From positions 49,928,588 to 49,992,587 of the forward strand of contig OX467082.1 of assembly GCA_950106755.1 (NCBI GenBank): 64,000 nucleotides of DNA, in the 5' to 3' direction. Shown here piece by piece: positions 11,250 to 59,500 of this stretch; the first letter of the stretch is position 1; each line of letters opens with the position of its first letter. The stretch is from Climacium dendroides. Its lineage: Eukaryota; Streptophyta; Bryopsida; Hypnales; Climaciaceae. The notes under the pieces were generated by a model. The model searched no databases. It was not told the origin of the DNA and was given only the letters and a program-made list of their open reading frames with translations. A program made the position numbers and the translations under genes.

Positions 11250-11260
11250 CATGTTAGCCC
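11250..11260. repeat. Candidate target-site duplication, left
   Basis: CATGTTAGCCC occurs here and again at 23370-23380, immediately outside the two inverted termini. An 11-bp duplication is within the range known for Mutator-like transposons. One unpaired base (23369) on the right leaves the exact junction uncertain by one base. Confidence 0.7.
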
Positions 11261-11345
11261 AACGACGCTAGCATGTGAGCATGTGAGCATGAGCCTATGA
11301 GCGGTGAACGTGAGCCTAAGAGCGGTGAGCAGGAATTGTGTGAGC
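11261..11345 (+). repeat. Left terminal inverted repeat with GTGAGC arrays
   Basis: The outer end is followed by tandem GTGAGC/GAGCCTATGAG-type repeats, up to GTGAGCCTG near 11348. They pair with the right terminus, allowing for small indels. Repeats of this kind near transposon ends are commonly transposase-binding sites, but that role is inferred here. Confidence 0.75.
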
Positions 11346-11461
11346 CTGAAGACTACAAATTTGAATCATGATATAATTTCTAATTTTTTTAGTTAAAAAA
11401 TTAAAAAGATTGATTTTTTTTAGCAAAGTTTATTTTTAGAAAAATATGACCTATTGCCACA

Positions 11462-11484
11462 GGACCCATGACCGTGGATTTAAA
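11462..11484 (+). repeat. Subterminal inverted block, left copy
   Basis: This block contains CATGACCGTGGATTTAAA and matches the complement of 23248-23270 with two mismatches over 23 bases. It lies about 200 bp from the left end but only about 100 bp from the right end, so the two termini are asymmetric. Confidence 0.8.
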
Positions 11485-11827
11485 AGCCTAGAAAATTGGC
11501 GCTATTGCAAGTTCAAATTTTATATCTAGGTTTGTTGGTATAAATCACGTTTTCAAAGTCAGTATTAGAGTAGGCTTATAAAGTGAAAGTACAAATAATT
11601 AATCCAAAGGAAATTCTAAAATTGACAGAAAGATAAATGCAATGAAAATACCAAAAAAAATTCTACATCTTACAAATAGTAAAATATCTTTTCATTGCAA
11701 CAAGGAATACATATTGAAATATAAATATAATACTTTGCAATATATGCAAATTTTAAAGATAATATATTGGTACTATAGATTTACTTCATATCATGCTAAT
11801 ACTCATCAACTAACTTGTTCACTAACT

Positions 11828-14800
11828 TCAATTGCACGTCTTGATGATTCCGGCAGCAACAAGTACTTGCTTAACTTCATCCAAACTGAGGGTAGGGGCG
11901 TGGATGAATGTGTCTATCTTGTAATCCAATTTACAGAAGTAACGGAAGATGTAATAAAGATGTTTGCAGTTTATATACATACCACGCTTTCCAATTGAAG
12001 TTCCATTCATACCTCCATAATGAGGACAAGTACAAGAAGGAAAATTAGAAAGCGTGATATTATAAACCTTCTGGTTAGGTTCAGTACCAGACAAAAGTGT
12101 AATAATAGCACCAAGTCCAGGGTAAGGAAGGAAGTTCACCCCAGTGATACTTGCTGTAACATTCCTTGCACTCTCCCATTGATTGCGGTGATTTTCGGTG
12201 GGGGCTTTACTACTCCGACGAACTTGCTTACCATTCCGAATAGAAGGAATTCTTTCAGCATGTGCCGGTCGAAGATGAGTCCACAACATAGGCTCAAATA
12301 TCCTTGATGAGGTGAATAGCCGTCGAGGTGACATTGGAATGCTGGATTGCAAGCGAAATCCAGCTTCTTCAAACTCTATAATTTCAGTACGAGTAAGATT
12401 GGTACCAATAAGAACAGGCCAAATCTCAGGGATCTCAGGTCGAGTAAGAACATGGGAACGCTTAGGTCCCATGACACATCGTGCAATTTGGTCAGCACAA
12501 AACCAAAAATCCTCAGTTTGAACTGTTGTCCCCTTATGCTCACGCTTTTGCCCTCTATAAGTAGGGGCAGCAGTGGATAATCCATGCCTGACAATCAATA
12601 GCTTGCATTTGGCTTGTGTGTACTTCTGAATGGCATGACATTGTTTCCTTGACTTGTGTGAAATTCTCGCTATATGCCATTCTGATGTATCACAATCGGT
12701 TTCTACAACAGATTGGGTATGGGGTAAAACTGTATTAGTTTCGACAACTACAACCCCAAGTTGCACTCTACCAACAGCTGATCTGATTTGAACCTGAGGA
12801 TGAGAGAAGTTTACTTTGTCAGGGCGATGAGAATCACCTTCAGAACCAATTGGAAGATCTAATTTCCTTTTGCTGGATCCAAATATTTCTTCACCCTCTA
12901 AATGTGGAATTCGAGTGCATATGTCTTCCGCTCCAGGCATCTCACTAAGTGCATCTGCAATTTTTTTTCCATCTCCAGATGCCATAGCCCTTTTCAATTT
13001 CAAATCTTCTTTAGAGGGGCCTTTTCCAGAAGGGCCCCCACAAAGATAAATCCTGTAGTTGGTCATTTGCATGAAGGCTTGAACCCAGTCATCACACATG
13101 GCAACGAACAAATCAGATCCACGCTTTCCTGAAGCTTGCATCCATTTGTTGTGCATTGTTTCAGCCAAATTGCATGTTGGAATATCTGCTAATTCTTCTA
13201 CTGTCAAATTCTGCAAATATATTAAATGAAGTCAGTCTTTGAAACATTGAGGATATAGGATAAAAAATAGGAAAAAAACAATGAAAGTAGATATCATACC
13301 GTATCCATGATTGCACCCCATTGACGATAGCGAAAGTGCCAAAATGCCAACCAATCCTCGAGTTCGCGAATAGCTGGTTCTGATGCAGCTCCAGAAGAAT
13401 ACCACCAAGCTTTGATTTCTAGGTACATCTTATCTACCTCCAACATTGATGTTGCATCCTTATACTGCCTGCAGAGTCGGATATGTTGTTTCTGAAACTC
13501 TTTGCTGATTAGTTTCTCCGTGTGTTTGTGCATGCTTGTCGCCCAATGGAACAAGCAAGTCCTTTCCCGGTCCACCATTGGAATAGATGGGTCCCCCGAC
13601 CCATACACAGTGCGAACTGCATTAAAGTTGGCCTGAGCACTATCGCACATAAATCCCTTGAAGTTAGGATTTGACACTCCATTTTTTATCATGACCTTAT
13701 TCAAACAACGCCAAAAAATGATCTGGCCTTCAGTGCCCTCAGTCTGCATATCACATACAGCAATGGTCATGACTTTGCAATAAGAGGAATCATAGACGTG
13801 GCAAGCAATAGTCGTCCATAGTTTCACTCTCTTGACATGATCGAATATGATAAAACAATTTTCAAGGTTGCCGCCTGGTTGCATCCGTCGTACAAGGTCC
13901 ACTCCACTTCCAGGTCCATCCACGAGCATCTTGAATAAATAGACCTTGTCTTGCCCTTGTCCTGGAAATACACTATCGTGGATATATTCCATTTTGGCAC
14001 GTCCCTTCATGTCTAGAATTCGATCAATCTCACCTCCTCCTTTGTTGTTGCTCCGAAAAGAGGAAATGATGTTGCGTACATTGGGCGAGCTAAGGAGCTT
14101 GAACTTATCCATGACATTCTCTAATGCATCACCGTGAAGCATCTCCTTTGGTCCAGGCCCATCGTGAATAAGAAACGTGTCAAGGAATTCCTTACTTGCC
14201 GCCAAGGTGATGGCAGAAGTTTTGGCTGTTGGAGTCTTAGCTACTTCGTTAGCAATTAGCCCAGTAATTGCTTCAAGAGACTCTCTACATTGACCATCAG
14301 TAACTGGATGTGAATGAACACCCAAATGGATGCATGCACGTGACAAATCTCCACTTCTGAGTACATAATAAATTTGCGAGTTACATAGACTAAGACAAGT
14401 AGGAGGTTGTCTGCAGACTTTACAGAGTACAGTAGAGTCAGGAGGAGGAATCTGACCTACACTAAAAGGATGTTTGGTGGTTCCAATCCACTCAGTTTCA
14501 TTGCTTTTCAAAGCTCATGTGCGATAGTCACATTTCGTATTTTCACAAATCAAGTGTCCAATACAATGCGATTTTCTGAACTTCAAACCTAAGTCATTAT
14601 GGATGTTTGATGTCATAGTGCGACACCATGCATGACCATCGTATCGCTTGTCCATACCTTCCATGCCTCTAGCTCCACATGTAGATCCACGACAAGGTGG
14701 TAGCTCGAAAAGAACATCCCCATCAAATCTAGATGGGAGGAACTGAACCTTCTGATAGTCAATGGCATCAAAATCAATTTGGGCAAGTTCATTTCGTGAT

Positions 14801-15441
14801 CCAGGCACTGAAGACAATTTGCGAAGGCATTCTAACACAGTTAAGGAATTGCCTTGATTGGGAGGGAGAGGGGGGCGAGAAAACACGGATGATGTTGGAC
14901 TACTAAGTGTACTACGGAAGATAGTAGGAATGGATGAATCTACCATACATGGAAAAACAACATTCGAAGAAGAAGGTTGGCAGACTTTCAGTGGCACCTC
15001 GCCTTCAGAATCGCTAGACAACTCAATTACAGGTTCTAGAGACTCGCGTTTGATATTGAACACAATTGTATTCTCAAAGCATCCACTACCTAAAGACTCC
15101 ACTTTTACAGGACATGGTAATGGATGTTCACCCTTGGAGTTATCAGAAGTAAGTTTCAATATTTCAGTTGAAGGTGGCAAGAGCTCCGACAAGAGACCAT
15201 AAACTCTATAGCGCCCTGCAGAAAGAAGCCTATAGAATCCTTCATGATCACTACATCTTGACTGCAAGATAGACTCCTTAACAACGCCGTGATCTCCTTG
15301 GACTTCTTCTTCCACAATAATAGAAGAAGGGGTGAATCCAAACCGGACATGAAGGAGATGGGCAAGTACACGAACGAAACCTTGATTATCTAGTGGTAAA
15401 ATAAATGGAACATCATGACCTTTAGCAACAATACTAGCCAT
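11828..15441 (-). pseudogene. MULE-type transposase with SWIM zinc finger, one in-frame TGA
   Basis: The gene has two exons (15441-13300 and 13210-11828) around an 89-bp intron (13211-13299) with GTATGA donor and TTGCAG acceptor. The frame encodes about 1,170 residues from an ATG at 15441. A single TGA at 14515-14517 lies in frame, and the same frame continues on both sides. The N-terminal 300 residues are low-similarity and Ser/Pro-rich. A Cys/His cluster follows (CIGHLICENTKCDY, then CKVCRQPPTC). The DDE core reads FDHVKR near residue 534, GFMCDSAQANFNAV with Asp near 600, then CLFHW, the C-x2-H signature. A C-terminal SWIM finger has CTC near 1107 and CKH near 1129 (C-x-C-x19-C-x-H). This is the order of Mutator-like transposases, which cut and paste the element by its termini. 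It is transcribed away from the ParB-like gene. Confidence 0.8.
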
Positions 15442-16117
15442 AGTGAAGCATTAAGAAAATGGGGGGCAAGACGTAGTTTGAAGAAGCAAAGAATGAAGTT
15501 TGTAAGTGCAAGAGGTGTGAATATAAAGGAGAAAATTATAGGGGTTGTTCGAAATGAATGAAATTTTTTTCATGGATGTACTGGAATTTGAAATTGGATT
15601 GATAATTTGAATGGTCATGAATAAATATTATATGGAGATTTGATATAGAAAAAGGTATATTAATAGTAGGTGTAATGAAGTTGGGTAAGACGGCGTACTG
15701 TATGGCATCAATTAACGCATGACCAATAATAAATGGATTATAGTATGAAGGATATCAATATGTATTAGACCAAGTTGACAGTGTTACAACTGTCACTGAC
15801 AATAGAAGATAAGCCGTCAAGCATAATAGTTGATGATGACGTATGACATATTTACAATTATAATTAAATATCTAGTGATAGTCTGACAAGATTAAAAAAA
15901 TAGTGGTTGATGACAATATGAATAGGAAAAAAAACTAGCCGTTATTTAATTATGAAATGAAAATATATCCTTATAAAGAGGAATTAGAGTTGTCTTATAG
16001 AATATGGAAGGTTGCAGGACATGAGGAAGCAGTAGATAGAAATGTGAGTTTCAAAGAGGGTGTGATGTAGTATGGCAGACGTTGATATTGTAATGCCTTG
16101 ATAGTTGATTATTTCAA
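15442..16117. promoter_or_regulatory. Divergent promoter region between the two transposon genes
   Basis: These 676 AT-rich bases separate the start codons of two genes facing away from each other, so both promoters must lie here. TATA-like stretches occur (for example near 15530 and 15645), but none can be assigned to a start. No inverted or tandem repeat stands out. Confidence 0.6.
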
Positions 16118-19100
16118 ATGCAAGAGGATTTGCTTTCACCATCGTTAGTGGTTGACACTCTAGTTACACACAGGAAGAAGAGGAAGAAAAGTAGCTTTCG
16201 TTATTCAAGTAGAAGGCAATTGTTAAGGGCTAGAATGATTAGACGGTTGTCTCGAATTAGTGCAGGTGATTTGTCAAGCTCAATGAGGAATTTAACATAT
16301 GGAGATATAGTTCCATGTGAAGTAATAGAAGAGGATATTGTAGAGGTTGGACGTATTTCTTGTGAAGGTCAACCAGAGATAGCTTCTGTCTATAGCGATT
16401 GTAATGAACACACTGACGAAGAAGAAAAAGATGAAGTAGATGAAGACACAGAAGAAGAGGAAGAACATCAACAATTAGCACTACGAACATTGGAGTTGGA
16501 GATAGAACTTGAAGGTACAAACATAGAGGTATGTAAATAATTTCTTCAAGCAATGGTAAATTAGAAAGTATGTGAAATTTTTTTTAAGACACATTTGTAG
16601 GAACTTTATATGATTTTGTGCGTGTCGGAAGCACGATTCCAACGGTATATAGCACGTAAAAAACGGATGCATAATGAGTGTTTTACGGCTTAAAAACTAA
16701 AACAGCATCTTGGAATCTTGCCTGAAATCTTTATAAACCGCAGATTTTTAGGCCAAATCCAGCCTTTTGATTTTCAGCAGGTTTTGGCAATTTTTGTAAA
16801 ATTGCTCGAGTGTCCAAAAAATTTGGAAAAAGATTAGGGGAAATCTGACCCGTAGAATCTATGAGTACAAAAATTTTTGGCTTTAAATCTTGAAAATTGA
16901 ATAAGTTATTCAAAAGATTCCTTTGAAGTACATCTACCAATTTTATACTTGTTTTTTTTTTTTTTTTTTTTGGAGACTTGTTTCAACCTAAACCTTGTGG
17001 TTTCGGCGCACATTGTCTTTCAACTTTTGAAGGTATCAGAGGAAGAAGAAGCTTTCCCCATGGACGAAGGAGAGGCTATAGAGGAGGCTACGGCGGAATC
17101 ATCGCGACGATTTGAGCGTGGAGCAACGATGATTCAAGAAAAAGAAGGGACAGCAAGTGTGCCGAGTGAGTCAAATTCAGGTGCGTGCCTCATTTTTTTC
17201 CGCCTCTTCAGACCCCAGCCGTTGACGGCTACGCTTTTTCCAATTCTATTTTGTTTTCAAAATTGCTTGGAATTGCCTTCATGTTTGTCTCTCCAATGGA
17301 CAGCCATTGACGGTCACGCTTTTCTGAATTCCAGTTTAGGGTTTAGGGTGCTACAATTTCGTAGAGCCCTACAATTTTTTGAGCCTTCTTAAACCCCAGC
17401 CGTTAACGGCTCCGCTTTTCTGAACTGTAATTTAGGAATTAGGATGCTACGATTTTGTAGAGTACTATAATTTTTTGAGCCTTCTTAAACCCCAGCCGTT
17501 AACGGCTACGCTTTTCTGAACTCAAATTTAGGAATTAGGGTGTTCCAATTTTGTAGAGCACTACAATTTCTTCAGCCTTCTTACACCCCAGCCGTTCATG
17601 GCTATAGTTTTGAGATACACATTTGCTTCTACAAAACATTAGGAATTTAGGCAAATGCTGAAATTTTTGGCTTCTATAGAACATTAAGGATTTCATCAGA
17701 TGCTGAAATCTTTGTAACTTTAGACCCCAGCCGTTAACAGCTATGCTTCTACAGACATAAATTTCATGTCTATACATGCTATATTGCTCAATACTTGCCG
17801 AATTGGCAAATTCTGAAAATTTTCAGGACTTCATAGACCCCAGCCGTTGACGGCCATGCTTTTAGAGACTTTTATTCTTTTCCCAATGTATGCTACATTA
17901 CTCAATATTTGTCAAATGCTGAAATTTTGCAAGACTTCATAGACCTTAGCCATTGACGGCCATGCTTTTAGAAACTTCTATTTTTTTTACTAATGTATGC
18001 TACATTGCTCAACAATAGCCAATTCCTAAAAATTTTCAGGACTTGATAGACCCTAGCCGTTGACGGCCATGCTTTTAGAGACTTCTATTTTTTTCCCCAA
18101 TGTATGTTACATTGCTCAACAGTAGCCAATTTCTGAAATTTTTCAGGGCTTCATAGACCCCTGCCGTTGACGGCCATGCTTTTAGAGACTTTGATTTTCT
18201 TCCCAATGTATGCTACATTGTTTATTTTATGTTGAAAATTTTAGGCCTCCTTAGACCACATTCATTAATGATTTCTATACGAAATGTATATATTATTGTA
18301 CATACATGTAGACTAAAACTTGTTCTAATCGTCATGTGCACATTGTTCTTGACATGTTGACAGAAAGAGATCCAGAAGCTGATGCCGCACTTCAACCTCT
18401 TTCTCAAGATGAACTTGAGTTACAGTTGCATGGATTCTTGAAGAAGGAGACTGTGAATACTTCTTCTCGTCTTGAGCGGTTGAGGTATCAACCACGACCT
18501 AAATCGAAAATCAATATTCCTTTATGTCGTATGATATCTCTATCGGTGGTAAGGCCTTTCTTGAAGAATGATGTCATGAATTTAGCTGCATACTTTGTTA
18601 CTTGTGGTTACATGGAAGGAAATGGAGTTTTCTATGTTGCCTTGGAGAACAATGAGGGGAAGACAATAGATGTTACGGATGAAATCATCAAAACATGGAG
18701 TCCAAACTGGGTGAGAGCAAATGCTACATTTGAGAGAGAATTGCAAAATGATGAGGACCTCAAAATTTTTTCTGGCAAGATGTTTATGGTATGGGATGGC
18801 AACCATCGTTTGCAAGCATGGATGCCTCTTATCAACCGAGATCATGCGGACGACTTTCAATGGCATTATGTTGTTGAAAGTATCATTTTGGAGGTCAAAG
18901 GGGATGTTGCAACTATGTTGACAGCATTACATGAAGTCAATTGGTAAACCATTATATTTCTTGATCCCTTTTTATTTTATTCATTTCTTTTGTTTTCCAA
19001 GTTTGTTTCACTTGAATCATTATCTATACTGCTATTCTGCATTCTGTTATTTCAAAGTTTTTTTTTTTATGTTCTAATATAATAAATTTTATTTTGGCAG

Positions 19101-22100
19101 GAGAAATCAGAAGTCCCATGTCTCCATAAATCTTGTTCACAAGCTCTATCGCATTCAAAATATTGCCGGACAGCCACTCTCGTATTTTAAAAAACTTGTT
19201 TCTAAGGAGGATCTTCTTGCAGCTGAAGCCAAGCAAAAATCGAAACAGAGAACTTGGTTCACTTTAACTCTTGAGGCTCTAAATGGAGTCTTATACCAGG
19301 TTCATTTCTTCATTTTCTTTTCTAGTTTTCAAATTTTTTTGAATGTATAGGTTTCTTGACATTAGCTTTTTTTTTAATTGCATTTCATATCTCTTCCTCT
19401 ACTATTCAAAACATTTGTTATCATTTGCATTTATGTTTTTTCTTACATATTCTTCACTTTTTGCAGCAAGAATTGGAGGATGCTGTTGTTGCTGCTCAAA
19501 GAAAATTCTATGAGAAGTATCCCAATCCAGTGGATTGGACTTCAAGTGCAGTTTTTGAGTGGGTTTCAAAAGCTGTTGACAAGGTCAAGGTAGCTTCTCA
19601 TTCAGAATTGAAGAAGCAACTTCCCATTGCAGATCCAAAGCATACGAGCGCATTTTTGGAGCAGATAAAGCTTCACTATGAAACTCATGACGACAATCCA
19701 GAGATGACCTAAGAAAAACTTTGGATGTTGGCAACTTCAGCGATGGATACTTCTATGAAGATCAAGTGGCTTGAGAGATGGAATAAGTCTCCTTCTCTTC
19801 GTGAGGCTCTCAAATTCCCTAAACCGAAATTCAGTGATCTCGAATTTCCTGAGTGGCTTCATAAAGCTACGTGGTGGGCTCAAGTGAGTACTTATCTTTC
19901 TTTCCTATTGTTTTAGTATTAATTCCTTGAACCTTTTGGATCAATCAAAAATTCAAAACATTATTTCTAATTTACAATTTATGTGTATGGCAGTTGGCTA
20001 TTGAGACAGAAAAACTCTTCAATGCTACAGTGGCAGATTTGAACGTATCTATTGACTATCTTCCCGATGGTATGGATCCCTTGCCTACTATTTTTGATTA
20101 TGTGGAGACTATGCGCATATTGTTGTGGAATACTGCATTCTTCCGTGAATTTGCTATCGATAAGGGGGTTCACAAGAACAACAAGATAGACAAGCAACTC
20201 AACTTCAAATCAGCCATGCAAAGGATGCTTTATAGATACTTTAAGTATGTTCTCTTCCCTGCCAAAGCCATTTCCAAAACTCCCACTTTCTTTGCCAATT
20301 ATTTGGACAAAGAAAGTGAAGAGTGCATGTTCACAGAGGGGATCATGGAATCTTGGGATCCCATGCATTGGGAAAAATGTGGGTGGTATTTGGATTGTCC
20401 CCTCAAAAGACCACCAACTTTTGATGTTGTCCTCCGAGATTCTATTGAGCCTACCCTCAAGGGTACAGCTATAGATGTTCTCAAGAAGGTCAGTAAGGAT
20501 GCAGCCAAGAAGACCAAGAAGACCAAGTCTAAGAAGTTGGTGGTTGAACTCGATGATTCCAATGAAGATGTACCAGTTCAAGATACTTTGAAGAATCTTG
20601 TTGTTACTATACCTTCTTCTTTCGATGTTGAAGCAAAACTCCCTGCTTCAAAGCGCCAGAAGACATCTTCTACTTCCGTTGTTTTGGTACCAACCTCCTC
20701 TCCTACCTTTGAGCTAGCTCCCAAGCTTAAAGGTATGATGAGTACATTGGCTCCTTTGTCTACCAATCCTACATCTCTTGATCTAATCTTAAATGATTCT
20801 TTTGTTAGAATCGTGGAAGAGAAGAAGAAAAATGGTACATTTGGTACATCATATGACAACATTATAGCTTTTCTCTCAAAGGTCAGTTCATTTTTTTTAT
20901 TTGTTTTCTTTTCATCTCATTTTTATTATTATGAAATCATACATATTCTACCCAATTTACATCTTTTCATTTTGTTCTTTTATGACTTTGACATCTTCTG
21001 TTATGAATTAACATTTTTGAAATTTATCTTTATAGGTCGGTGAAGGTAGAGAGTTCTTTTTTGATGGCAAAATTCAAAAGAGACCAGCTGTAGACCTCAT
21101 CATTGCAGAGTATCCAGATGGTCTTCCAGTTCCAGGGGTTTCAAATCCATCATCTGAAATCCCTCATTGGAATGCTAGCATTCCAAGTTTTCTCCATGTA
21201 ATGATGGCATTCTCTCTCACCTATCTTCATGATAATGGAGCATTTCTTCTATTTTATCCTGATACTTCTACGGTGAAGAGAGAAGTGTCCGGATTCTTCA
21301 AGAACTACAAGTTGAAGATCAAGGATGAGTGGACTATCATAAATTGCTTACATTTGGCAAATCCCATGAACCCATCCAAATTTGTAAGTAGTAATTTCAA
21401 TCTTTCACTTTTTATTTTGATTCACTTGTTATTGCAGTTATTTTCATTTTAAGTGTACATTCTAATTTGATTTTGATTTTGATTTGCAGACTTTGAAGTT
21501 CAAGGCTTTGCTATTGATTCAATCATTAGCCTCTGCTATTGCTAGGCAACCTCGAGAGCTTCAAATTTCTATTGATCCCTCAATTCCTGAGGTTGATTTA
21601 ACCACAGATGATGTCCTTTTCAACACTATTACGACAACAACTCAATCATGTAGAAAGGAAGATGGCAAGCCATGGAGGGGTGCTAAGGAAAAATCTGAGA
21701 TTCTCATGAAGCTTTTTGTTCATGGCTTAAGCCCTACAAATGGTATTGTGGTAGACATGACTGCCTCTACAGGTATTGTAATCTACAACATTGAATCATT
21801 ATTGTTGTATATTCTGATTTGATTTTTTTCTCTACCTTCTAATTTTGATGTTCTTATAATGTCAATATTGTGTCTTATACAGGTTCTTCCATCAGAGCAG
21901 CTCATTCATCTAATCGTCACATTCTAGCATTAGAAAGTGATGCCAAGCTTTTTGATGAGGTACTGAAGCCATTACAAACACCTACTATCATCTCTAAGAC
22001 TCTTCATTCTACTACCACGGATGATGGTATGGAGATTGATGACGACTCTCCAATTGAAGATGTCGAGTTACTTGACTTATGTGAGTAAGTTTTTTTTTGT

Positions 22101-22421
22101 TTTTTTTTTCAACAATTGCAATTCAAAATTCAATACTTTGAATTTTAATTTGTTATTACATACTCAAACATATGGTTTGTTGTTTGCAGTTGGATGAGTC
22201 CATCACCAAGACAGACCTTGCCTTTTTTCCGACACTCTGAATTTTTTAGAAGTCCTTCTCTGAGTCCTCGTGGCCTACCTATTTATGCTGAAGATTTAGC
22301 ATTAGCTTATGCTAATGTTTCATCTGATTCGTCTTCGATCTCTCTATCACCTCATAGATCTTATGATCCTAGAGTATGTTCTTATTTTGAACTCAGTGTA
22401 TCTGAGTCGGACGATATTTGA
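16118..22421 (+). pseudogene. ParB-domain / N6-N4 methyltransferase-like protein of the transposon, one in-frame TAA
   Basis: Ten exons join in frame with GT-AG introns: 16118-16528, 17033-17180, 18364-18943, 19101-19299, 19467-19883, 19994-20881, 21036-21383, 21490-21772, 21883-22084 and 22190-22421, giving about 1,235 codons. The N-terminus is basic (RKKRKKSSFRYSSRR) then very acidic. Exon 3 has a ParB/sulfiredoxin-fold core ending FMVWDGNHRLQAW near residues 327-339; the DGNHRL phrase is the nucleotide-binding signature of that fold. A Lys-rich NLS-like stretch (KKTKKTKSKK) lies near 757. Exon 7 has VDLIIAEYPDG (about 900-910) where methylases have an (N/D)PPY motif IV. Exons 8-9 have KPWRGAKEKSEILMKL, then VVDMTASTGSS and RHILALESD (from about 1084), matching motif X and motif I of the permuted (beta-type) N6/N4 methylases. 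Both catalytic motifs are altered, so activity is doubtful. A TAA at 19710-19712 interrupts exon 5. Confidence 0.72.
17205..18215 (+). repeat. Intronic array of about ten palindromic-core repeats
   Basis: Intron 2 of the ParB-like gene holds about ten degenerate copies of a phrase like GACCCCAGCCGTTGACGGC followed by (T/C)A(T/C)GCTTTT. Cores lie near 17218, 17302, 17399, 17495, 17591, 17730, 17843, 17949, 18056 and 18163, so the spacing is 84-139 bp and about 107 bp in the last four. Two cores are the perfect 12-bp palindrome GCCGTTAACGGC. In the 3' half the whole unit repeats, including a TATGCTACATTGCTCAA-like phrase. Palindromic iterated sites suit protein binding, but no binding protein is shown. 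Confidence 0.85.
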
Positions 22422-23247
22422 GTTTGATTTCATACTTTTATATTTGATTTCTATTTACTTTATTCTATTTTGAATCTAACTATACATGATGTGGCAACAA
22501 TTCCATTTGATGGCCTTAAACTTCACTCTCTGTTCAAATTGAATAATAAATTGCAAGCCTTGAATTACACTACACCATTGGACTTTATAAAATTCTACAT
22601 AATTCACTTTAATTTGGAAGTAAATTAAACTATTAAAAATTGGATTTGTTTCAAAAAAATAGTTTGATTAAGATAGTCCAAAAATAGAGGCATTGACTAG
22701 AAAAATAATTGCTTCATTCATTCTAGGTTAATACATATACCTAGTATAATAAATGAATATTTTGTACATTTAAAATATTCAAAATTCAAGATTTTCTATT
22801 TTTATTTTAAATCATTTTTAAAAAATTAAAAAAAATAAATGGACCATTTTCATTCTTTAAATTTACATGAAGGCCAACAATTAAGACTTCATTTATCACA
22901 TAATCATAAACTCAAGACCATTTTTATGATCTAATGCTTGTAATATTTTGCCTATCATCAAATTTATATTCAACATCTACAATCCATGTTTATTGCCCCT
23001 TCTATTTTTACTTGATAAATGTGCCCTTTAAATAATGGTATTACAATGCATTGTATTTATCTCATATATGTCTTGTAGTGAAATATCCTAAACCACTATA
23101 TAGACCTATTTTCATTATGTGTTACTTACAAAAATTTCCTATTTTATAATATTTCAATTTAATAAAATATATTGGTTCAATTTGGGGGGGACAAAATCAA
23201 ATAGGAACAAATTCATTTGTTGTTTATTTGGACTATAGATCCTTGCA
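22422..23247. other. AT-rich 3' region of the transposon
   Basis: I see no gene. The stretch lies between the last exon of the ParB-like gene and the right subterminal block, and probably contains its polyadenylation signals. Confidence 0.5.
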
Positions 23248-23368
23248 TTTAAATCCACGGTCATAGGACCTGAACAGATTTAGGAATCCTAAATGGATAA
23301 AAAAATGGAGGCTCATAGGCTCACAGGCTCATAGGCTCACGCTCACAAGCTCACAAACTAGCATCCCC
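23248..23368 (-). repeat. Right terminal and subterminal inverted repeats
   Basis: Complementing this stretch gives GGGGATGCTAGTTTGTGAGC at the outer end, then GTGAGCCTATGAGCC-type repeats, then a block containing ATGACCGTGGATTTAAA. The order matches the left end. The GCTCA/TAGGCTCA tandem copies span about 23310-23355. Confidence 0.78.
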
Positions 23369-23369
23369 G

Positions 23370-23380
23370 CATGTTAGCCC
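23370..23380. repeat. Candidate target-site duplication, right
   Basis: CATGTTAGCCC is identical to 11250-11260. Confidence 0.7.
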
Positions 23381-26396: not shown

Positions 26397-27125
26397 TAGC
26401 CCCCTAAAGCACTAAATTATTATTTTTGGCAACATAGGTATTTTGTGCAGTTTACTACAAACAAAAATTTTATTCTTTTTTGTTAAAATTTTCATACAAC
26501 ATTTTCTCGAGGAGTAGCTTCAAGGCCTAATAATTTTCATAACTTTTGATTACATGGTTAAAAAGTTATTGTGCGATGTTTCATTTTCATTGCTTGGCAG
26601 GTAACCAAGGTAGCTCTAAAAACTTCTTTAAAAATCACTTTTCAAAAAAATACAAAATTGAAATTATTCTCTTTCTATATATAAGCAGGAAGCTTTGAAT
26701 CATTCCATTTTGATTAATGAGATGAAAGTTATGAGGAGTTTTAATTTGCGGATAGGAATGCAGTCTTTGAAAACCATTCCTACCGCGAACTAAAACTCCT
26801 CATAACTCTCATCTCATTAATCAAAATGGAATGATTCAAAGCTTCCCACTTATATAGAGAGAATCAATTTCAATTTTTAATTTTTTGAAAAGTGATTTTT
26901 AAAGAAGTTTTTTGAGCTTCTTAAGTTGCTGATGAAAATAACACATCATGCAATAACTTTTTAACCATGTAATTAGAAGTTACGAAAATTATTGGCCTCG
27001 AAGTTACTCCTTGGGCACATGTTTTACAAAAATTTCAGCCAAAAAAAATTTAAAATTCTATTTGTAGTGAGCTTCCCAAAATTGCTATGCTGACCCCAAA
27101 TGCAATTTTTACCTTTAGGGGCTAG
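26397..27125. repeat. Long imperfect inverted repeat (foldback), arms about 360 bp
   Basis: The left arm (26397-26760) pairs with the right arm (26775-27125) around a spacer of about 14 bases. The inner parts are close to identical (for example ATTAATGAGATG near 26716 against its complement near 26813), and the outer parts have small indels. A transcript would form a long hairpin. The inner arm sequence recurs at about 30277-30336 and in complement at 63950-64000, so it belongs to a dispersed family. It has no coding capacity. Confidence 0.85.
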
Positions 27126-39700: not shown

Positions 39701-42700
39701 ACTTTGACCAAGTTCCAATGATTTGGAACATTACTCATATTGGTTCATGGGACTGCATGTCGAGAATTCAGCTAGGTGTAGTAGACCAATTCAATTGAGG
39801 CCGGACTTGCCAATGGTTAGAATCTGGAATTGAAGGCAGGGTGAGCGTGTCATCGTCAATTTCGTGAAATTGACGGCAGTACGTACGGGCGCCAAGAATT
39901 GTGATATTTTCTTCTGCACAGACCTCTAAGAACCATCGCCAAAGTGGAAAGTGCCAAAGTCGTGGAATTCCTCCAAGTTAACGTAATTGACTGTGAGGGT
40001 TGTCAGTTTTATATGTAAAAAAGCCTTTGGCCGTCTGTTTGTGCATGGAGGTCAGTCATCCTCATATATCTTCGCCTGAACGTAATGATCGTGCATTGGC
40101 AGGCACTACTGTCGGCTTGGCTCAACACATCAAGAACGTGAGTAACTCCAAGAGTCCGAGCGTGGCTCTCTGCTTTCAGCTTACTTGCTGTTCGTGCGTA
40201 CGACATGAACGAGCCTAGCCTGAGGATGGGGAAGTCATTCCTTAGTTAGCTTGGCAGTCATGGAAGGAGGGAGGTAAAGAGATCCATGTCCACTAACACG
40301 GGGGGTCTTGGTGGTCTTTGGGAATGAACAGCGTGCTCTAAGCTGACGACCTGCTCAGAGGAGGAGCTGCAGAAGGAGAATCTGACCGGAGTCGGCGGAT
40401 TAATCATTGTGAGTCCTCCCAATTTATGCATACTTTTAATGGTTTCTGACTACAAAGATCTGTTCAGTCTCCACCGATACGGCCTAGCCCAAGGAGCTCC
40501 AGTTATGTTTGAGCTTTCTTGACGTATAATCTGGATCTGCTGTCAGTCATGGCTATTCTTTTTTAGGCTAAATATCGCCAGATTTTTTCAAGTACACGCA
40601 TTGGACTATCTACAAGCCTTTAGGAAATTTAAGGAGAATATGTGTTATTGAGCCAGCCTTTTTTAGCATTTTTGTTGAAATTTGTTGTACGTCTCGAGAA
40701 ATTCCATTGTAGATACCCGAATAGCAATATTATTTACAATATTCGCCAGAATTGATACCCTCAACTGAATAACAATTGGAACCAACCCCATGAATAAGAA
40801 AATTTGATAAAAGAAAGGCTGATTGTACGTCTGTCTGTCGGAATGGCAAGTGGGAACCGATGGTGTGGACCTGGGAAATGAGCGAGAATGGTGATCATGC
40901 GGGGACTTGAAACAATGAATAATGTATGCTTGCAGGCGACTTTGACCATCACTCTGTTGCTGGTGTTTACGTGTTCCGACTGGCTCATGGACATTCGCAA
41001 GAAGCGCAAGTCCAAGGCCCGGGATAAGGCACAGAAGCAGGCCGTGGAGAGCATATCGGGCCTGGAGCGCTTCCGGCAGGCCAAGGATGCTGCCAGACGC
41101 GGCGCCACTCATTTCTCGCGGAAGCTCAGCCACAGCGTGTCTCGCAAACGGCCAGCGTTTGCCGACCGATCGGAACTTCAGGTGCGTAGGATTTTGCGAT
41201 CGTTGATGCCGAACGACCTCTAGCTTGTGGTGACCAGCCCTCCAGACTCCCCCATTAATTGATTTTCCCATCGGACTGAGAAACATTTGCATTCCCGTCC
41301 ATGCAGTCTCTGAGCACGTTTGGTGGCCCAGCGAGCCATTCCTCGACACTGGGATTTATGAGGGACACCATCCGCGAAGAAGACAGCAGAGACGGGGCCA
41401 ACATTCCCTTAAGCCCCACTACGCTTGCGCCCACACATTCGAGCGATGACCTCTACGACTACGACCATGCAGCCGCAGCAGGAACTGCGCCAGCTGTGCC
41501 GGTGGGTACCAGTGGGGAAGGATCGGTCCGCAAAAGCAAGGATGGCGGTCGGAAGCGACCGGCCATCTTGCGCATGCCGCAGACGCAGAGTCAGATCTTT
41601 GCGTACGCATATGGCGAAATTGAGAAAGAGAAGGCCACTATCAGCAGCAGCTTCAACGATGTGGAGTCGGGGGGTGACTACTATGGGGCCCCACACATGC
41701 TGGGCAAAATGCGGCCGCCCATCGAGCTGAGCTTTGTGGATCTGTCGCTGTTCCTCAAGGGCTCTGGCAAGAAGATTCTGAGCAACGTGACGGGCACGCT
41801 GAAGCCCGGCCGCGTGACGGCGGTGATGGGTCCGTCCGGCGCCGGCAAGACGACATTCCTGAATGCGCTGGCCGGCAAGGCTACGCACAGCCGCACGACA
41901 GGTGCCGTGTTCATCAATGGAAAAAGCGACTCCATTCAGTCGTACAAGAGCATCATTGGCTTCGTGCCGCAGGACGACATCGTTCACGGCAATCTCACGG
42001 TGGAGGAGAATCTATGGTTCAGCGCCCGCTACAGGTAAGGATATACGTAACTAGTGTAGAGTTCATTGGTGGTGCAGCGGCGGGAGTGGGGTCGTTACTT
42101 AGTGGTTCCTGAAATGGCTTGGAGTCATTAATTCAAATGTTCATTTCTTCAATTGAACGTGGAGCGGTGAAGACCGAATCTATCAGGGAGAGTAAGTTAC
42201 TTTCTTGTTAGCTGATCTCGAGTGGCGTGTGGTTGTGGTCTGACGGGCATGGCTATGGCGGGCTGGCAGACTGCCGGTGGGCACTAGCAAGCGCGACCGC
42301 GTGTTGGTGGTGGAAAGGATCATCGCGGCGCTGGGTCTGGGACCCATTCGCGATTCGCAGGTGGGCACGGTGGAAAAGCGGGGCATCTCGGGCGGGCAAC
42401 GGAAGCGGGTGAACGTGGGCCTGGAAATGGTGATGGAGCCATCGCTGTTGATTTTGGATGAGCCCACCTCCGGCTTGGACAGTACTTCGTCCCGCCTGGT
42501 GCTCCAGGCCTTGCGACGCGAAGCTAGTATGGGCGTCAATGTGGGCGTCGTGCTTCATCAACCGAGGTAGACTCCCCTTGAGCATGCAAGCTTGCATGCT
42601 TACATTCCACCCTCATTGACTGACTGATCAATCGTCATCATTGGTTGTGCGTTGGTGTCATTGCTACCGCTTGCTGTTGGTGAGGATGGGGATGACCCAG

Positions 42701-44557
42701 AATCATAATTTGCATGGCTGGTGTCTGATGGTGGTGCAGCTATGGACTGTTCAAAATGTTCGACGATGTGATGTTCCTGGCGAAGGGAGGGCGCACGGTG
42801 TATCTGGGGCCCGTGAGCGAAGTGGAAGACTACTTCGCAGGGATTGGGTTGATGGTGCCGGATCGCATCAACCCGCCGGATCACTACATGGACGCCCTGG
42901 AGGGCATCGCGGTGCCTGTGGACCAACCGGACTTTGACCCGCAAAACCTGCCGGTCATGTGGCTCATCAACAAGGGCTACAACATCCCCGCCGACCTGGC
43001 CACCCGGGCCGCGGAGCTTCAGTCTGGCACACCGCTTGGCAGAAGCATGAAGAAGCGGACGATTCCCGATGGGCCCAAACGCAAGAAAACGTCCTTCTTC
43101 CAGGATTTCTGGACGGAAGTGCGGGCCTTCTTCATTGTGCGCAAAGACTTGATCATCTCGTCCTTCCAAAGGGTGGACAACAAATCCGGACGTCACACGC
43201 CGGGCTTCCTCCGCCAGTTCTTCATCATTTTGCGCCGGTAGGGACTCGCTTCGTCCTGCTCTACTTCATCCGATCCATCCCTGCCCACTTTATTGGATGC
43301 TATGAAATCAGTGTATGCAATGAACCTCTGCCATCCAGGCATGCGCTTCCATAGCACGGCTTGCAATTTATTTATTTACTATGCATGGCAAGCAATTAAT
43401 AGAGCCTGACATTAACAGTGCGATTTTCCGAGCTTGTCTGCATTGAGACCCGGGGATGATGTTGTTTGGGTAGAATGACAAAGCAAGCACCTACTGCTGC
43501 GTGTCCCGTGTGCAGGTTGACCAAGCAACGTTTCCGTGAATCCCGAGTGCAGTTTCAAGACTACGTCATATTGTTGTTGGCGGGGGCCTGTCTGGGTCCC
43601 CTCTCCAACATGAAGGATACCACCCTCGGAGCCGCAGGCTATTTTTACACTCTTATTGCTCTCGGTAAGCCTCCTTTCCTTGGAGCAGGAGGTTATTTTC
43701 ACAGTCGTATCTGCAGCTCTAGAGCACCACTGTATGCAAGCTTACCTGAGCGAGAAAGGTTGATCTATCTATATTCAAATGATGGGGTTTAGCAACGTCG
43801 TGTAATTAATGTAGATAGTTCAGAATATCGATTAGAGTCTGAAGTGGCTGAACGTGAATTCCTGACCTGTTAATAATGGTCTTCAGTTGATGTCCTGCCT
43901 GCCTTGTATGCATGGGTTTCCAAGAAACTGTCTGTTTGTTTTAGTTCTCGGTGACCGGTGGCACGGTTTGACTTCCGCATGGTGTGAACTGCTGCAGCTC
44001 TTCTGATTATGATTGCTTCGTTGAGAACGTTCTCCAATGACAAGCTCACATTTTGGCGTGAGAGTGCATCGGGAATCAATCGGGTCGCTTTCTTCCTCGC
44101 CAAGGACGTGGTGGACCTCTTCAATGTAGTGATTAAGCCTGTCATTTACCTGTCCATGTTCTATTTCTTCAGTAACCCGCGATCATCATTCGTGAGTAAT
44201 TTTACGGTGACGTTGGTCCTGGTGTATTGTGTGACGGGCATTGCTTACATCTGCTCCATCCTTCTTGAACCTGCACCGGCTCAACTGGTAAGTGCAACGA
44301 CCTACGTCCTGTCCACAGAGTAATTAGTCTGCGGATGCATGGAGGAGCTTAGGGTGTGAGCTTGAAGCAGTCGAGTGACTTCGTGCTCGCAGTGCTGACA
44401 GATGCCTCTTGTTGGCGTGCATGCAGTGGTCGGTGTTTTTGCCCATTTTGGCTACTTTGATTATAACGGTCAAACGGGGCGGATTCATACTCAAACTTCA
44501 GTATCTCAGTTATGCTCGTTATGCCAACGAGGCTTACGTTATTGCGAATGCTTCAAA
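36762..44557 (+). CDS. ABCG half-transporter with Cys-rich extracellular N-terminus (3' end lost in gap)
   Basis: This is a plant ABCG transporter of the subclade with a long extracellular head (AtABCG24/28 type). Exon 1 has ATGs at 36762, 36789 and 36807. A signal peptide ([17 protein letters not shown]) and a Pro-rich repeat follow. Cys-rich exons lie near 37536, at 38718-38978 ([17 protein letters not shown]), 39125-39190, 39524-39667 and about 40336-40409. A membrane segment and basic linker are at 40936-41181. The nucleotide-binding domain spans 41307-42034 (Walker [10 protein letters not shown]), 42270-42566 ([11 protein letters not shown], then [13 protein letters not shown]) and 42740-43237. 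Membrane exons are 43516-43664, 43998-44287 and 44427-44557. The frame stops at ANAS against the N run. The last expected 40-60 residues are absent, and the exon 2/3 junction and one small Cys-rich exon are unresolved. Such transporters export lipids or cell-wall precursors at the plasma membrane; the substrate here is unknown. Confidence 0.88.
36880..36980 (+). repeat. In-frame Pro-rich minisatellite in ABCG exon 1
   Basis: A 36-bp unit encoding [12 protein letters not shown] is repeated almost exactly (about 36889 and 36925), followed by shorter Pro-rich relatives. It lies right after the predicted signal-peptide cleavage site, so it would be extracellular. Unit number probably varies between individuals or species, which is inference. 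Confidence 0.8.
37693..38206 (-). pseudogene. HD-Zip class I homeodomain fragment, antisense in ABCG intron
   Basis: The minus strand encodes an acidic N-terminal part, then [20 protein letters not shown], then after a one-base shift [20 protein letters not shown] and [17 protein letters not shown], then a leucine-zipper start ending NLQIE. This is the homeodomain plus first zipper heptads of an HD-Zip I transcription factor. The frame breaks in the run of four T at 37906-37909; removing one base restores an ordinary homeodomain, so this is either a real frameshift or a sequencing error. After QIE a GTGAGG donor-like sequence follows, suggesting a genomic copy with its intron and not a processed one. 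No second exon was found. It lies within an intron of the ABCG gene on the opposite strand. Confidence 0.75.
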
Positions 44558-56536: not shown

Positions 56537-59500
56537 CTTGCCACAAATGAGGTAAAGTGGGACATTTAGCAAATGTATGTCGAACATCGGAATATTTTGC
56601 TAAAATATTTCAAGAAAATAAAAAATTATGTGCCCAAATTCAAAAAGCTCACACCATAAATGCATCTATGAATCCGTTTGAAGCTGAAGATGTAGAGGCG
56701 TATGTTGTTGAGAATATATCCACTTGTGAGTCTTGTGATGCGCTCTTTGACTCTGCAAATACTCATACAATCCTGCGAGATAAACAATTTTTTTATATTA
56801 ATAATTTTTCAAATTGACAAACCAGAAATTTAATGACTATGTCTAAATCGAATGTGTTTTGTTTCTAAGAGGGACCAACAAAGGTAATATTGCCTGAAGG
56901 CACCACTCTTACTTGCATGCGTACAATGTATTCACCCTCTGCACCTCGAAGCCTGATTAGCTATCGAAATGTGCATACCAACGGTTTTACCTTTCAACCA
57001 GAATTTTAAATAAAGAAGAGGCTCTAGTTTTTATGCATGATAATAAAGTAGTGAAAACAGCCTTTGCTGCGTCAAGGGCTTGTATCGGATTCCAATCCAA
57101 CCACATGTTATATCTAGTTTTGTTTTATCTACTAAAGATAATAAAATTTCTATTTGGCATAGAAGATTGGGTCATCCAAATTTTACTTTATTTTGTAAAA
57201 TTCTTTCATGTACTATTAGCCATAATTTACAACCAACAGATGTTAATTCTATGATACAATGTCAAGCATGCATGCAAAGTAAATTTATTGCCAAACCATC
57301 CTTGTACAAATTTTCACACAAATTACCACCTATATTTTCAAGGTTGCATGGTGATATTTGTGGTTCAATTACCCCTATGTCTAAACCATTTAGGTATTTC
57401 ATGGTTTTGGTTTATGCATCAGACAAGCGATCCCATGTATCATTATTATGTACAAGAAATTTGGCTTTTGCCAATTTACTTTCTACATTGATTCGTTTTA
57501 AGGCTCATTTCCTTGATTATCCTATCAAGACACTAAGGATGGACAATGCTCAAGAACTTCGGTCAAAAAAATTTGAAGATTATTGTATTGCAATGTGAAT
57601 TGACTTAACATACTTAGTTCCGTACGAGCATGCTCAAAATAGATTGGCTGAGTCTTTTATCAAACGAATTTAATTTATTACAAGGTCTTTGCTTCTTTAT
57701 GCGAGTTTGCTTTCATTTATATGGGGTCATGCAGTTCTTCATGCTACAACCCTCATTCGACTCCGTCCTTCATCTATGGAGATTACTTCTCCCCAAAAGC
57801 TTCTTTCAAAATGAGTTCCAAATGTATTTTATCTTTGAGTCTTTGATTGCTGTATTTGGGTTTCAATCCCGAAACCTCAACACCATACTATTGAAGCTCA
57901 TCAACAAAAAGGTATTTATGTTGGGTTTGACTCTTCAAATATCATCAGATACATTAACCCATTCACTAGTACGTTACTCCGTACTCGTTTTGTTAATTGT
58001 CGATTTGAAGAAAATATTTTTTTCATTTTTGAAAAGATAAGTTTCTATTCAACAACCTTCTGCAGAATTTTTATTTAAAGTGCCCGAGACATTGACATCA
58101 AATCCTGATCCTCGAACATCTTTGGTTGAAACTGAAGTTGCCAAAATTTTGCATTTGCAAAAAATTGCAGATTAAACTCATGATGGTTTCAGTGATGCAC
58201 TTAGAATTACCAAAATTCCATTAAATAAAGCTCAGAATGTTCCTACTTGAATTTCAATATCAGAGTCTGTTGCAACTTCAATTATTCAAACGTTGAGCAA
58301 ATGGACTCGTGGACCAAATAAGCAACCATGTAAACGCAAGGCAACTATTGAGGCTATTGATCCTTCTATATATTCAGCTATTACTACTAATATTATAGGA
58401 TTTATTACTTCAAATCTCCATCAACATCAAATATTACTACTATAATTGATACAAAAAAGTCTAAATTGAATACAAAGTTATCTGTAATGTACTGTGATAT
58501 TGGTGATATATAGGATAGAGTAACAACTAATATTGATGATTCATTCAATTCTATAGTGGTAGAAACATTTTCTTGCGAAAAAAATGACTTTAAACTAAAT
58601 ACTATTGAATAGGCAATGCATCGACCTGATTGATTAAAGTGGAAAACTGTTATTGAGGAGGAGTATGTTTCTCTACATAAAAGGCAAGTTTTTGAACCAA
58701 TTGTTAATAATCTTCCTTCTCGATCTCTTGAATACAAGCTAATATTTGTGCGTAAACGCAATGACAAAACTCAAATTATCCGTTACAAAGTGTGCTTGGT
58801 TGCTAAAGGTTTTATATAGAAGTTTGGTATTGATTATGATTCCACATACTCACCAATTATGGATTTCATTATTTTTTGATATCTTATTAGAATGGTTGTG
58901 CATGCCATACTTGAGATACTTCTTATGAATGTTATCACTGCTTACCTATATGGCTCATTAAATGTTAACATCTATATAAAAGTTCCATAAGGACTTAACA
59001 CTACAATCCATGCTGCACCAATTCCATGCAAACATCGTAACGTCAAATTAAAATGAACATTATATAGTCTCAAACATTTTGAATTGATGTGGTATCAGCA
59101 TATTCGACATTTTCTTATTAAGAATCATTTTACAAATGATTCATTACTTCCACGTATTTTTATCAAACGAGACAAACTTGATTTTGTCATTATTGCAGTA
59201 TATGTTGATGACTTAAAATTTGTGGGGACAAAAGACACTTGTGCTGCAACTACTCAACTTCTTGTTCGTGAGCTCGAAATGAAATTACTTGGCAAAACTA
59301 CATTTTGCATTAGTCTTTAAGTTCTTCACATGAAAGATGGCAGTGTTTTTCTTTCACAAACGACTACATCAACCGAATCCTAAAAAAATTCAATATGATA
59401 GATGCCTATCCGCTTTCTACACCTATGGTGTGTCGTAATAGTAAAAATGATGATCCATATTGTTCTTGTGAGGAGGAGGAGGAAACATTGAGTGAGCAAT

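Follow-up and report, generated by a model that had tools for sequence, protein, structure and literature searches.

Fusions of a ParB-CTPase fold with an N6_N4 methyltransferase are known from phages, and ParB proteins act as cytidine triphosphate (CTP)-dependent clamps, which are loaded onto DNA and then slide along it (available part of PMC12704722). Here, we describe a protein of similar build encoded within a transposon of Climacium dendroides, in a 64,000-nucleotide stretch of contig OX467082.1 (assembly GCA_950106755.1, positions 49,928,588 to 49,992,587, forward strand), termed the window, whose numbering is used throughout. The element is a defective copy of a multi-copy, Mutator-like element (MULE)-like DNA transposon carrying a transposase gene and a second gene, termed the cargo gene. 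As far as the phage fusions are covered in the same source, the cargo protein shares with them an N-terminal ParB fold, a C-terminal PF01555-type domain and a location on mobile elements. The viral locus L016, its domains read by eye, combines a ParB-like N-terminal part with a methylase-like part bearing an intact TDPPYG, and has no known transposase partner; the cargo protein differs from it by the loss of motif IV, a long linker between the domains and nine introns.

The VANDAL elements, with their VANC proteins, resemble this locus in being MULE-type elements with a second gene adjoining the transposase and family-specific short motifs in tandem repeats. VANC recognises short motifs, often tandem-repeated and also present in the VANC21 intron, and removes methylation element-wide; in the accessible portion of PMC5735166, however, no likeness of VANC to ParB or to methylases is described, and neither YAGTATTAY nor AGTTGTCC, the motifs of VANC, is a CG palindrome. 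Bdelloid N4CMT is likewise a bacterial-type beta-class amino-methylase acting at transposons in a eukaryote, but it is an active SPPY enzyme encoded by a host gene with a chromodomain and not transposon-borne (PMC8885841, in part). Marchantia DN4MT1, compared by description only, is a bryophyte N4-cytosine methylase, yet an active host enzyme (PMC8566409, in part). DndB (PF14072), a ParB-superfamily regulator with a weak profile match to exon 3 of the cargo gene, differs in regulating a phosphorothioation operon. To our knowledge, DndB has no methylase-like domain. Accessory open reading frames of MULEs include PMD, SET, FAR1 and ovarian-tumour types (PMC6446971), and the words ParB and methyltransferase are absent from the available text of this source and of a 2026 gene-capture review (PMC13317346). 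The combination of a transposase with a ParB/methylase cargo was not found described in searches of open-access papers, consistent with the original prediction, made from the sequence of the window, that no plant transposon with such a cargo had been described.

The explanation we tentatively favour, giving it slightly less than an even chance, is that the second gene of this defective MULE-like copy encodes a ParB fold joined to a degenerate beta-class amino-methyltransferase, and that the protein occupies the element and hinders its silencing or controls its transcription.

A MULE-like transposon with two divergent genes

The limits of the element at 11260 and 23369 and the target-site duplication bear out the predicted inverted termini beside a transposase (Table 1). 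Both genes are enclosed by inverted matches of 60 columns and 28 bp, and the ends of the seven other copies contain inverted matches too. Each of these copies is also flanked by its own direct repeat of 9–10 bp, one of them with a mismatch. A flanking repeat of 12 bp, the first impression for the window, was rejected, as 10 bp remain once the ends are set by the other copies. The duplication of about 10 bp is compatible with the 8–11 bp given for MULEs in a table of PMC6446971. Short tandem repeats of the GTGAGC/GGCTCAC type lie within both termini (11283–11328 and 23309–23355) and are candidate transposase binding sites.

The cargo gene model (16118–22421) comprises 10 exons and nine GT-AG introns, with 1,235 codons and a single in-frame TAA. 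The coordinates of the original prediction proved exact, and its nine introns are supported by the splice-site model, by the Ceratodon purpureus protein P0119 and by all seven chosen genomic copies. P0119 runs continuously through exons 3-4-5 as modelled, providing independent support for the splicing, and all ten exons were matched in the same order and with similar spacing in 7/7 copies, apart from a partial exon 2 in one and a broken exon 6 in another. A missed intron as the cause of the exon-5 stop was ruled out by the seven other copies, which lack it. At least one stop nevertheless occurs in some piece of each of the eight compared copies (in the window, one per gene), indicating a family that was once active and whose copies compared here have decayed.

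Table 1 Features of the transposon in the window
Feature	Position	Strand	Remarks
Whole transposon, 12,110 bp	11260..23369	.	Similarity with 7 other genomic copies starts and stops here
Target-site duplication, left copy, 10 bp	11250..11259	+	CATGTTAGCC
Target-site duplication, right copy	23370..23379	+	
Left terminal inverted repeat	11264..11323	.	With short subterminal tandem repeats; E 3.5e-9 against right end
Right terminal inverted repeat	23311..23365	.	Pairs with 11264-11323
Left subterminal inverted match	11460..11487	.	E 2e-5
Right subterminal inverted match	23245..23272	.	Pairs with 11460-11487
MULE-like transposase gene	11828..15450	-	One intron ~13211-13299; in-frame TGA 14515-14517; CxC...CxH (SWIM-like) near C-terminus
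Cargo exon 1	16118..16528	+	
Cargo exon 2	17033..17180	+	
Intron-2 array	17217..18175	+	10 near-palindromes AGCCGTTRACGGC (0-2 mismatches), largely in tandem units of ~96 and 107 bp
Cargo exon 3	18364..18943	+	ParB/sulfiredoxin-fold domain; DGNHR 18795-18809
Cargo exon 4	19101..19299	+	
Cargo exon 5	19467..19883	+	In-frame TAA 19710-19712, not in 7 other copies
Cargo exon 6	19994..20881	+	Lys/Ser-rich linker at end
Cargo exon 7	21036..21383	+	Proposed motif IV position of methylase-like domain, EYPD 21108-21119
Cargo exon 8	21490..21772	+	Motif X and beginning of motif I; KPWRGAKEKSEILMKL
Cargo exon 9	21883..22084	+	End of motif I, motif II (ILALESD)
Cargo exon 10	22190..22421	+	Ser-rich tail, stop

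The transposase and cargo genes are divergent, and their frames lie about 670 bp apart. A Pfam search with three transposase pieces gave no transposase, MULE or SWIM match, and the transposase query found no confirmed relative in viral contigs. The window transposase and a copy 49% identical to it over 391 residues have FDHVKR, DSAQAN, CxFHW and SMLE in common, which we take to be compatible with the MULE pattern (DDE, with C-x-x-H after the second D). The predicted linkage of cargo homologues to the transposase was found in 7/7 close copies and in 6/12 distant ones, where a divergent transposase piece lies upstream (L052, L053, L055, L056, L058 and L063). No such piece was found in the sequence examined of L054, L057 and L059–L062, even with lineage-specific queries; short flanks may account for some of these (L054 stops near exon 1, and its relative L063 has the piece), and loss or divergence may account for the others.

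Searches with the full-length cargo protein returned nothing at E<=0.001 (7,990 candidates sharing most words scored). The exon-3 query, however, matched 119 proteins at 49–88% identity, the majority being predictions of exon size without a name, and exons 7–9 matched 85 proteins at E<=0.1, the weakest at 8.2e-7. In the 412.6-Mb genome that contains the window, exon 3 gave at least 150 matches (150 of 1,012 candidates scored), from 100% identity, the window itself, down to 34%, with and without stops, some being pieces of one copy. This number of matches over so wide a range of identity points to a group of related lineages and not to one captured gene. The named relatives all come from a moss: two annotated Ceratodon purpureus proteins in the exon-3 family, P0043 and P0119, have names containing UG, which presumably denotes the U sex chromosome, where these relatives may sit.

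Six distant copies, 35–48% identical in exon 3, were fetched with 10 kb of sequence; all six keep both domains, retaining exons 3 and 7 together with exon 8 and/or 9. For the close copies, we calculated the ratio of nonsynonymous to synonymous differences per site (pN/pS) from pooled, non-independent pairs of eight copies, using ungapped pieces only. The resulting values were 0.74 for exons 1–2, 0.47 for exons 3–5, 0.52 for exon 6 and 0.78 for exons 7–9 of the cargo gene, and 0.47 (N+M) and 0.79 (C part) for the transposase, with some single copy pairs above 1. The original prediction had called the module domesticated; this did not hold, as the gene travels with the transposon and its pN/pS is similar to that of the transposase.

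The ParB-like and methylase-like parts of the cargo protein

Exon 3 encodes a ParB/sulfiredoxin fold: 29 of the 31 structure matches listed are named ParB/sulfiredoxin members, as anticipated from the signature noticed in the sequence at the outset. DGNHR, which probably corresponds to the P motif with the conserved Arg of this fold, is exact in 80 of 120 exon-3 rows and varied in 19, some without the Arg (no reading in 18, wrong captures in 3). The distant copies keep it as DGNHR or EGNHR. Pfam gave no ParB and no helix-turn-helix match on the cargo protein, the DndB profile matched 8/120 exon-3 rows (best E 0.0011), DUF5531 matched 20/120 (best 0.0046) and MC2 6/120. In phages, tblastn with P0043 gave weak matches to hypothetical proteins, and neither the exon-3 query in viral contigs nor the exon-3 profile in viral and prokaryotic contigs yielded a confirmed relative. 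The capture of the module from a prokaryote, suggested in the original prediction, thus gained no support from these contig scans.

The likeness of the C-terminal part to beta-type methylases stands at motifs X, I and II. PHROG DNA methyltransferases match it with E 8.4e-5 for the window and down to 1.7e-5 for relatives (0.0031 for one lacking exon 9), whereas the PF01555 score, 18.1 bits for the window and 21.6 for the best relative, stays below the cut-off of 26.7 for membership. The PHROG and PF01555 matches cover motifs X, I and, where present, II. Aligning with hhalign a profile of 41 sequences (32 used) to one of 16 phage/viral sequences, two of them confirmed PF01555, gave a probability of 94.6 and E 7e-8 over 62 columns. 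In a column-shuffle control, the real scores were 63.9 (half 2) and 20.3 (half 1), each exceeded by one of 120 shuffles, with an outlier of about 134. In a repeat, one of 60 shuffles was such an outlier, spanning just 17 columns. We take this outlier for an artefact; the shuffle summary of the motif IV comparison is affected by the same outliers. Further matches were weak: 18 phage records found by tblastn had E 2–8 among the 15 listed, the two checked being PF01555 methylases, and exons 7–8 matched WRC in 5/85 rows (best 0.02) and phrog_7178 in 8/85 (best 0.015). The exon-7/8 profile found no confirmed relative in viral contigs, sequence searches of the PDB gave nothing meaningful, and neither of the two pieces searched in NCBIfam was assigned to a family. 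The structure model of the methylase-like part, for which P0162 was used, with a read-through intron and without exon 9, is of low confidence.

The motifs themselves, read against their familiar roles in methylases, are unequally preserved. Motif X reads PWRG[AP]REK in 4/4 readable distant copies. Motif I, contained in VVDMTASTGSS across the exon 8/9 junction, is D-[LM]-[TS]-[AT]-[GS]-T-G in 17/17 readable rows, and its traces up to the exon end in three distant copies are DCTAAT, DCTVST and DWNAST. In motif II, both E and D are retained in 5/5 readable distant copies. Of the changes ascribed to these motifs in the original prediction, that of motif IV is thus evident, whereas motif I is less changed, some relatives having DLTAGTG. 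The proposed position of motif IV is partly supported, in that EYPD does occur in exon 7, but its register is weak: IAEYPDGL falls on ITDPPFGV with E 0.035 when matched to the first half of the phage profile only, and against the whole profile the best alignment of this half takes another register (E 0.033). Motif IV was readable in 63 of 85 rows (21 without a reading, one wrong capture), 51 with [AV][ED]YPDG and 12 with variants, and its first residue is D or E in 62/63. A catalytic (D/N/S)PP(Y/F/W) was found in none of these 63 rows and in none of the six distant copies (IADMPEG, IADILEN, IADIPEN, VFDCQEN, IVDILEN and FADVPEN). At the fourth place, the canonical aromatic residue never occurs; an acid stands there instead, and Asn in 3/63. 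The methylase-like domain is therefore probably non-catalytic, as had been proposed: judged from these motifs, binding of S-adenosylmethionine (SAM) is plausible and amino-methylation unlikely.

Alternatively, the protein could be a working DNA methylase whose catalytic motif is unusual and which would place N4-methylcytosine or N6-methyladenine on the CG palindromes or element ends, or modify another substrate, and thereby alter transposase binding or silencing; we regard this explanation as unlikely. The constancy of motif I, its traces in the distant copies, the E and D of motif II and the acidic first residue of motif IV would all suit such an enzyme, and bdelloid N4CMT provides a precedent of a captured beta-class methylase working at transposons (PMC8885841, in part). 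The same source, however, reports that changing SPPY to APPA abolished the activity of N4CMT, and the canonical form of this motif is missing from every readable sequence of the family.

CG palindrome arrays and other features of the window

The near-palindromes of intron 2 are spaced 85–139 bp apart, with a column identity of 92% in the ten cores compared with 57–69% in the ungapped flanks. Scanning both strands for AGCCGTTRACGGC gave 19 matches where 0.76 were expected; 18 fall in intron 2, and the remaining one lies at 54627 with 2 mismatches. The 1.5 kb before exon 3 contain 6–10 palindromes in each of the 20 close copies examined, among them the window, and the same motif is read through ahead of exon 3 in the database relative P0002.

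The distant copies carry arrays of their own, placed relative to exon 3 only, with exons 1–2 not located in most of them. Eight of 12 have tandem arrays of a different palindrome upstream of exon 3 (L052–L055, L059, L060, L062 and L063), four palindromes lie scattered in L061, AT-rich 35-bp repeats accompany two CG palindromes in each of L056 and L058, and L057 has no notable palindrome array upstream of exon 3. The design common to the palindromes is two CG steps with four bases between them, while the arms follow the lineage: GC..GC in the window, CT..AG in L052, L053 and L059, TT..AA in L054 and L063, GT..AC in L060, L061 and L062, and CG..CG, weakly, in L056 and L058. L055 contains eight copies of TCGGCGCCGA and no match of the strict form NN-CG-N4-CG-N'N'. 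In L060 and L062, a 214-bp unit is repeated 2.9 times around ATGTCGG..CCGACAT, and no transposase piece was detected within 5.2 kb upstream of exon 3.

Across 13 loci, the 3.5 kb upstream of exon 3 contain 49 matches to NN-CG-N4-CG-N'N' compared with 2.6 expected from dinucleotide shuffles; of 200 shuffles, none reached the observed count in nine loci, one did in L058, six in L056 and 24 in L057. A control stretch of 4 kb from exon 3 on in seven loci, partly coding and hence not matched in kind, gave 0 in 28,358 bp, and the remainder of the window (51,890 bp) contains six loose matches. A stricter test for perfect CG-N4-CG 8-mers was significant in 4/13 loci (window, L054, L055 and L061), passed over loci whose centres are imperfect and gave 2 sites in the 28-kb control. 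As tandem duplication inflates the raw count, we place weight on the number of lineages with different arms.

These arrays also bear on a reading of the cargo protein as a self-regulator or repressor like DndB or KorB, which would bind palindromes in its own leader introns and tune one or both genes. The short interval between the divergent frames, the position of the palindromes within the transcribed leader region and the best DndB profile match to exon 3 are in line with it, and DndB is described as a repressor dependent on adenosine triphosphate (PMC12704722, in part). Such a role leaves the retention of the methylase-like domain in all six distant copies unexplained, and we hold it to be about as improbable as an active methylase.

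Outside the transposon, a long imperfect hairpin at 26529–26993, with nested inverted arms of 62–78 nt that are 82–92% complementary, is probably a small foldback element. At 41280–43241, GC-rich open frames containing a Walker-A-like motif have the look of what we take to be an ABCG-type transporter gene, and an open frame at 57047–57598 presumably represents the pre-integrase/integrase part of a copia-type retrotransposon.

Possible roles of the cargo protein

A role as a transposition co-factor, comparable to that of second proteins in some MULEs, in which the cargo protein would bridge or mark the DNA of the element for use by the transposase, is less probable again. It would agree with the linkage to the transposase in every close copy, and several MULE groups have antisense second genes (PMC6446971, in part), but the conserved array is internal and the terminal repeats differ from it in sequence. 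MULEs tend to pick up host gene fragments (PMC6446971, in part), yet a passenger captured once and carried without function is very improbable, as the conservation across lineages speaks strongly against it: both domains persist at 35–48% identity, DGNHR/EGNHR and motifs X and II being conserved, and the pooled pN/pS of exons 3–5 is below 1 and equal to the transposase value.

Occupancy of the element by the cargo protein is the explanation we prefer. The protein would recognise, either by itself or via host factors, the palindromes of the element that encodes it, and its ParB-like part would bind nucleotide through DGNHR, leading to loading and perhaps to spreading along the element. The methylase-like domain may bind SAM or DNA, having lost amino-group methylation. 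Occupancy could then hinder host silencing or control transcription of the element, in the manner of VANC on VANDAL elements. The parS sites of ParB are likewise palindromic. Combined with what is described for VANC and for ParB clamps, loading of a ParB-like protein at the CG palindromes of its own element, followed by spreading, would account for the array as well as for its differences between lineages. In a more specific and rather doubtful version, a nucleotide-gated ParB clamp with a SAM-binding pseudo-methylase would load at the CG-N4-CG palindromes, spread, and block or reverse host CG methylation, with the arms re-tuned in each lineage as protein and target co-evolve.

ParB-fold/methylase fusions have been described in phages and bacteria; here, such a protein has a long-lived transposase partner in an intron-rich genome, which suggests that a methylase fold can be kept for something other than amino-methylation. 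If the protein binds the array, it would constitute a second, independent self-recognition system encoded by transposable elements, beside VANC, and, given the site-specific loading and sliding of ParB clamps, the action of one protein along a whole transposon would become directly testable.

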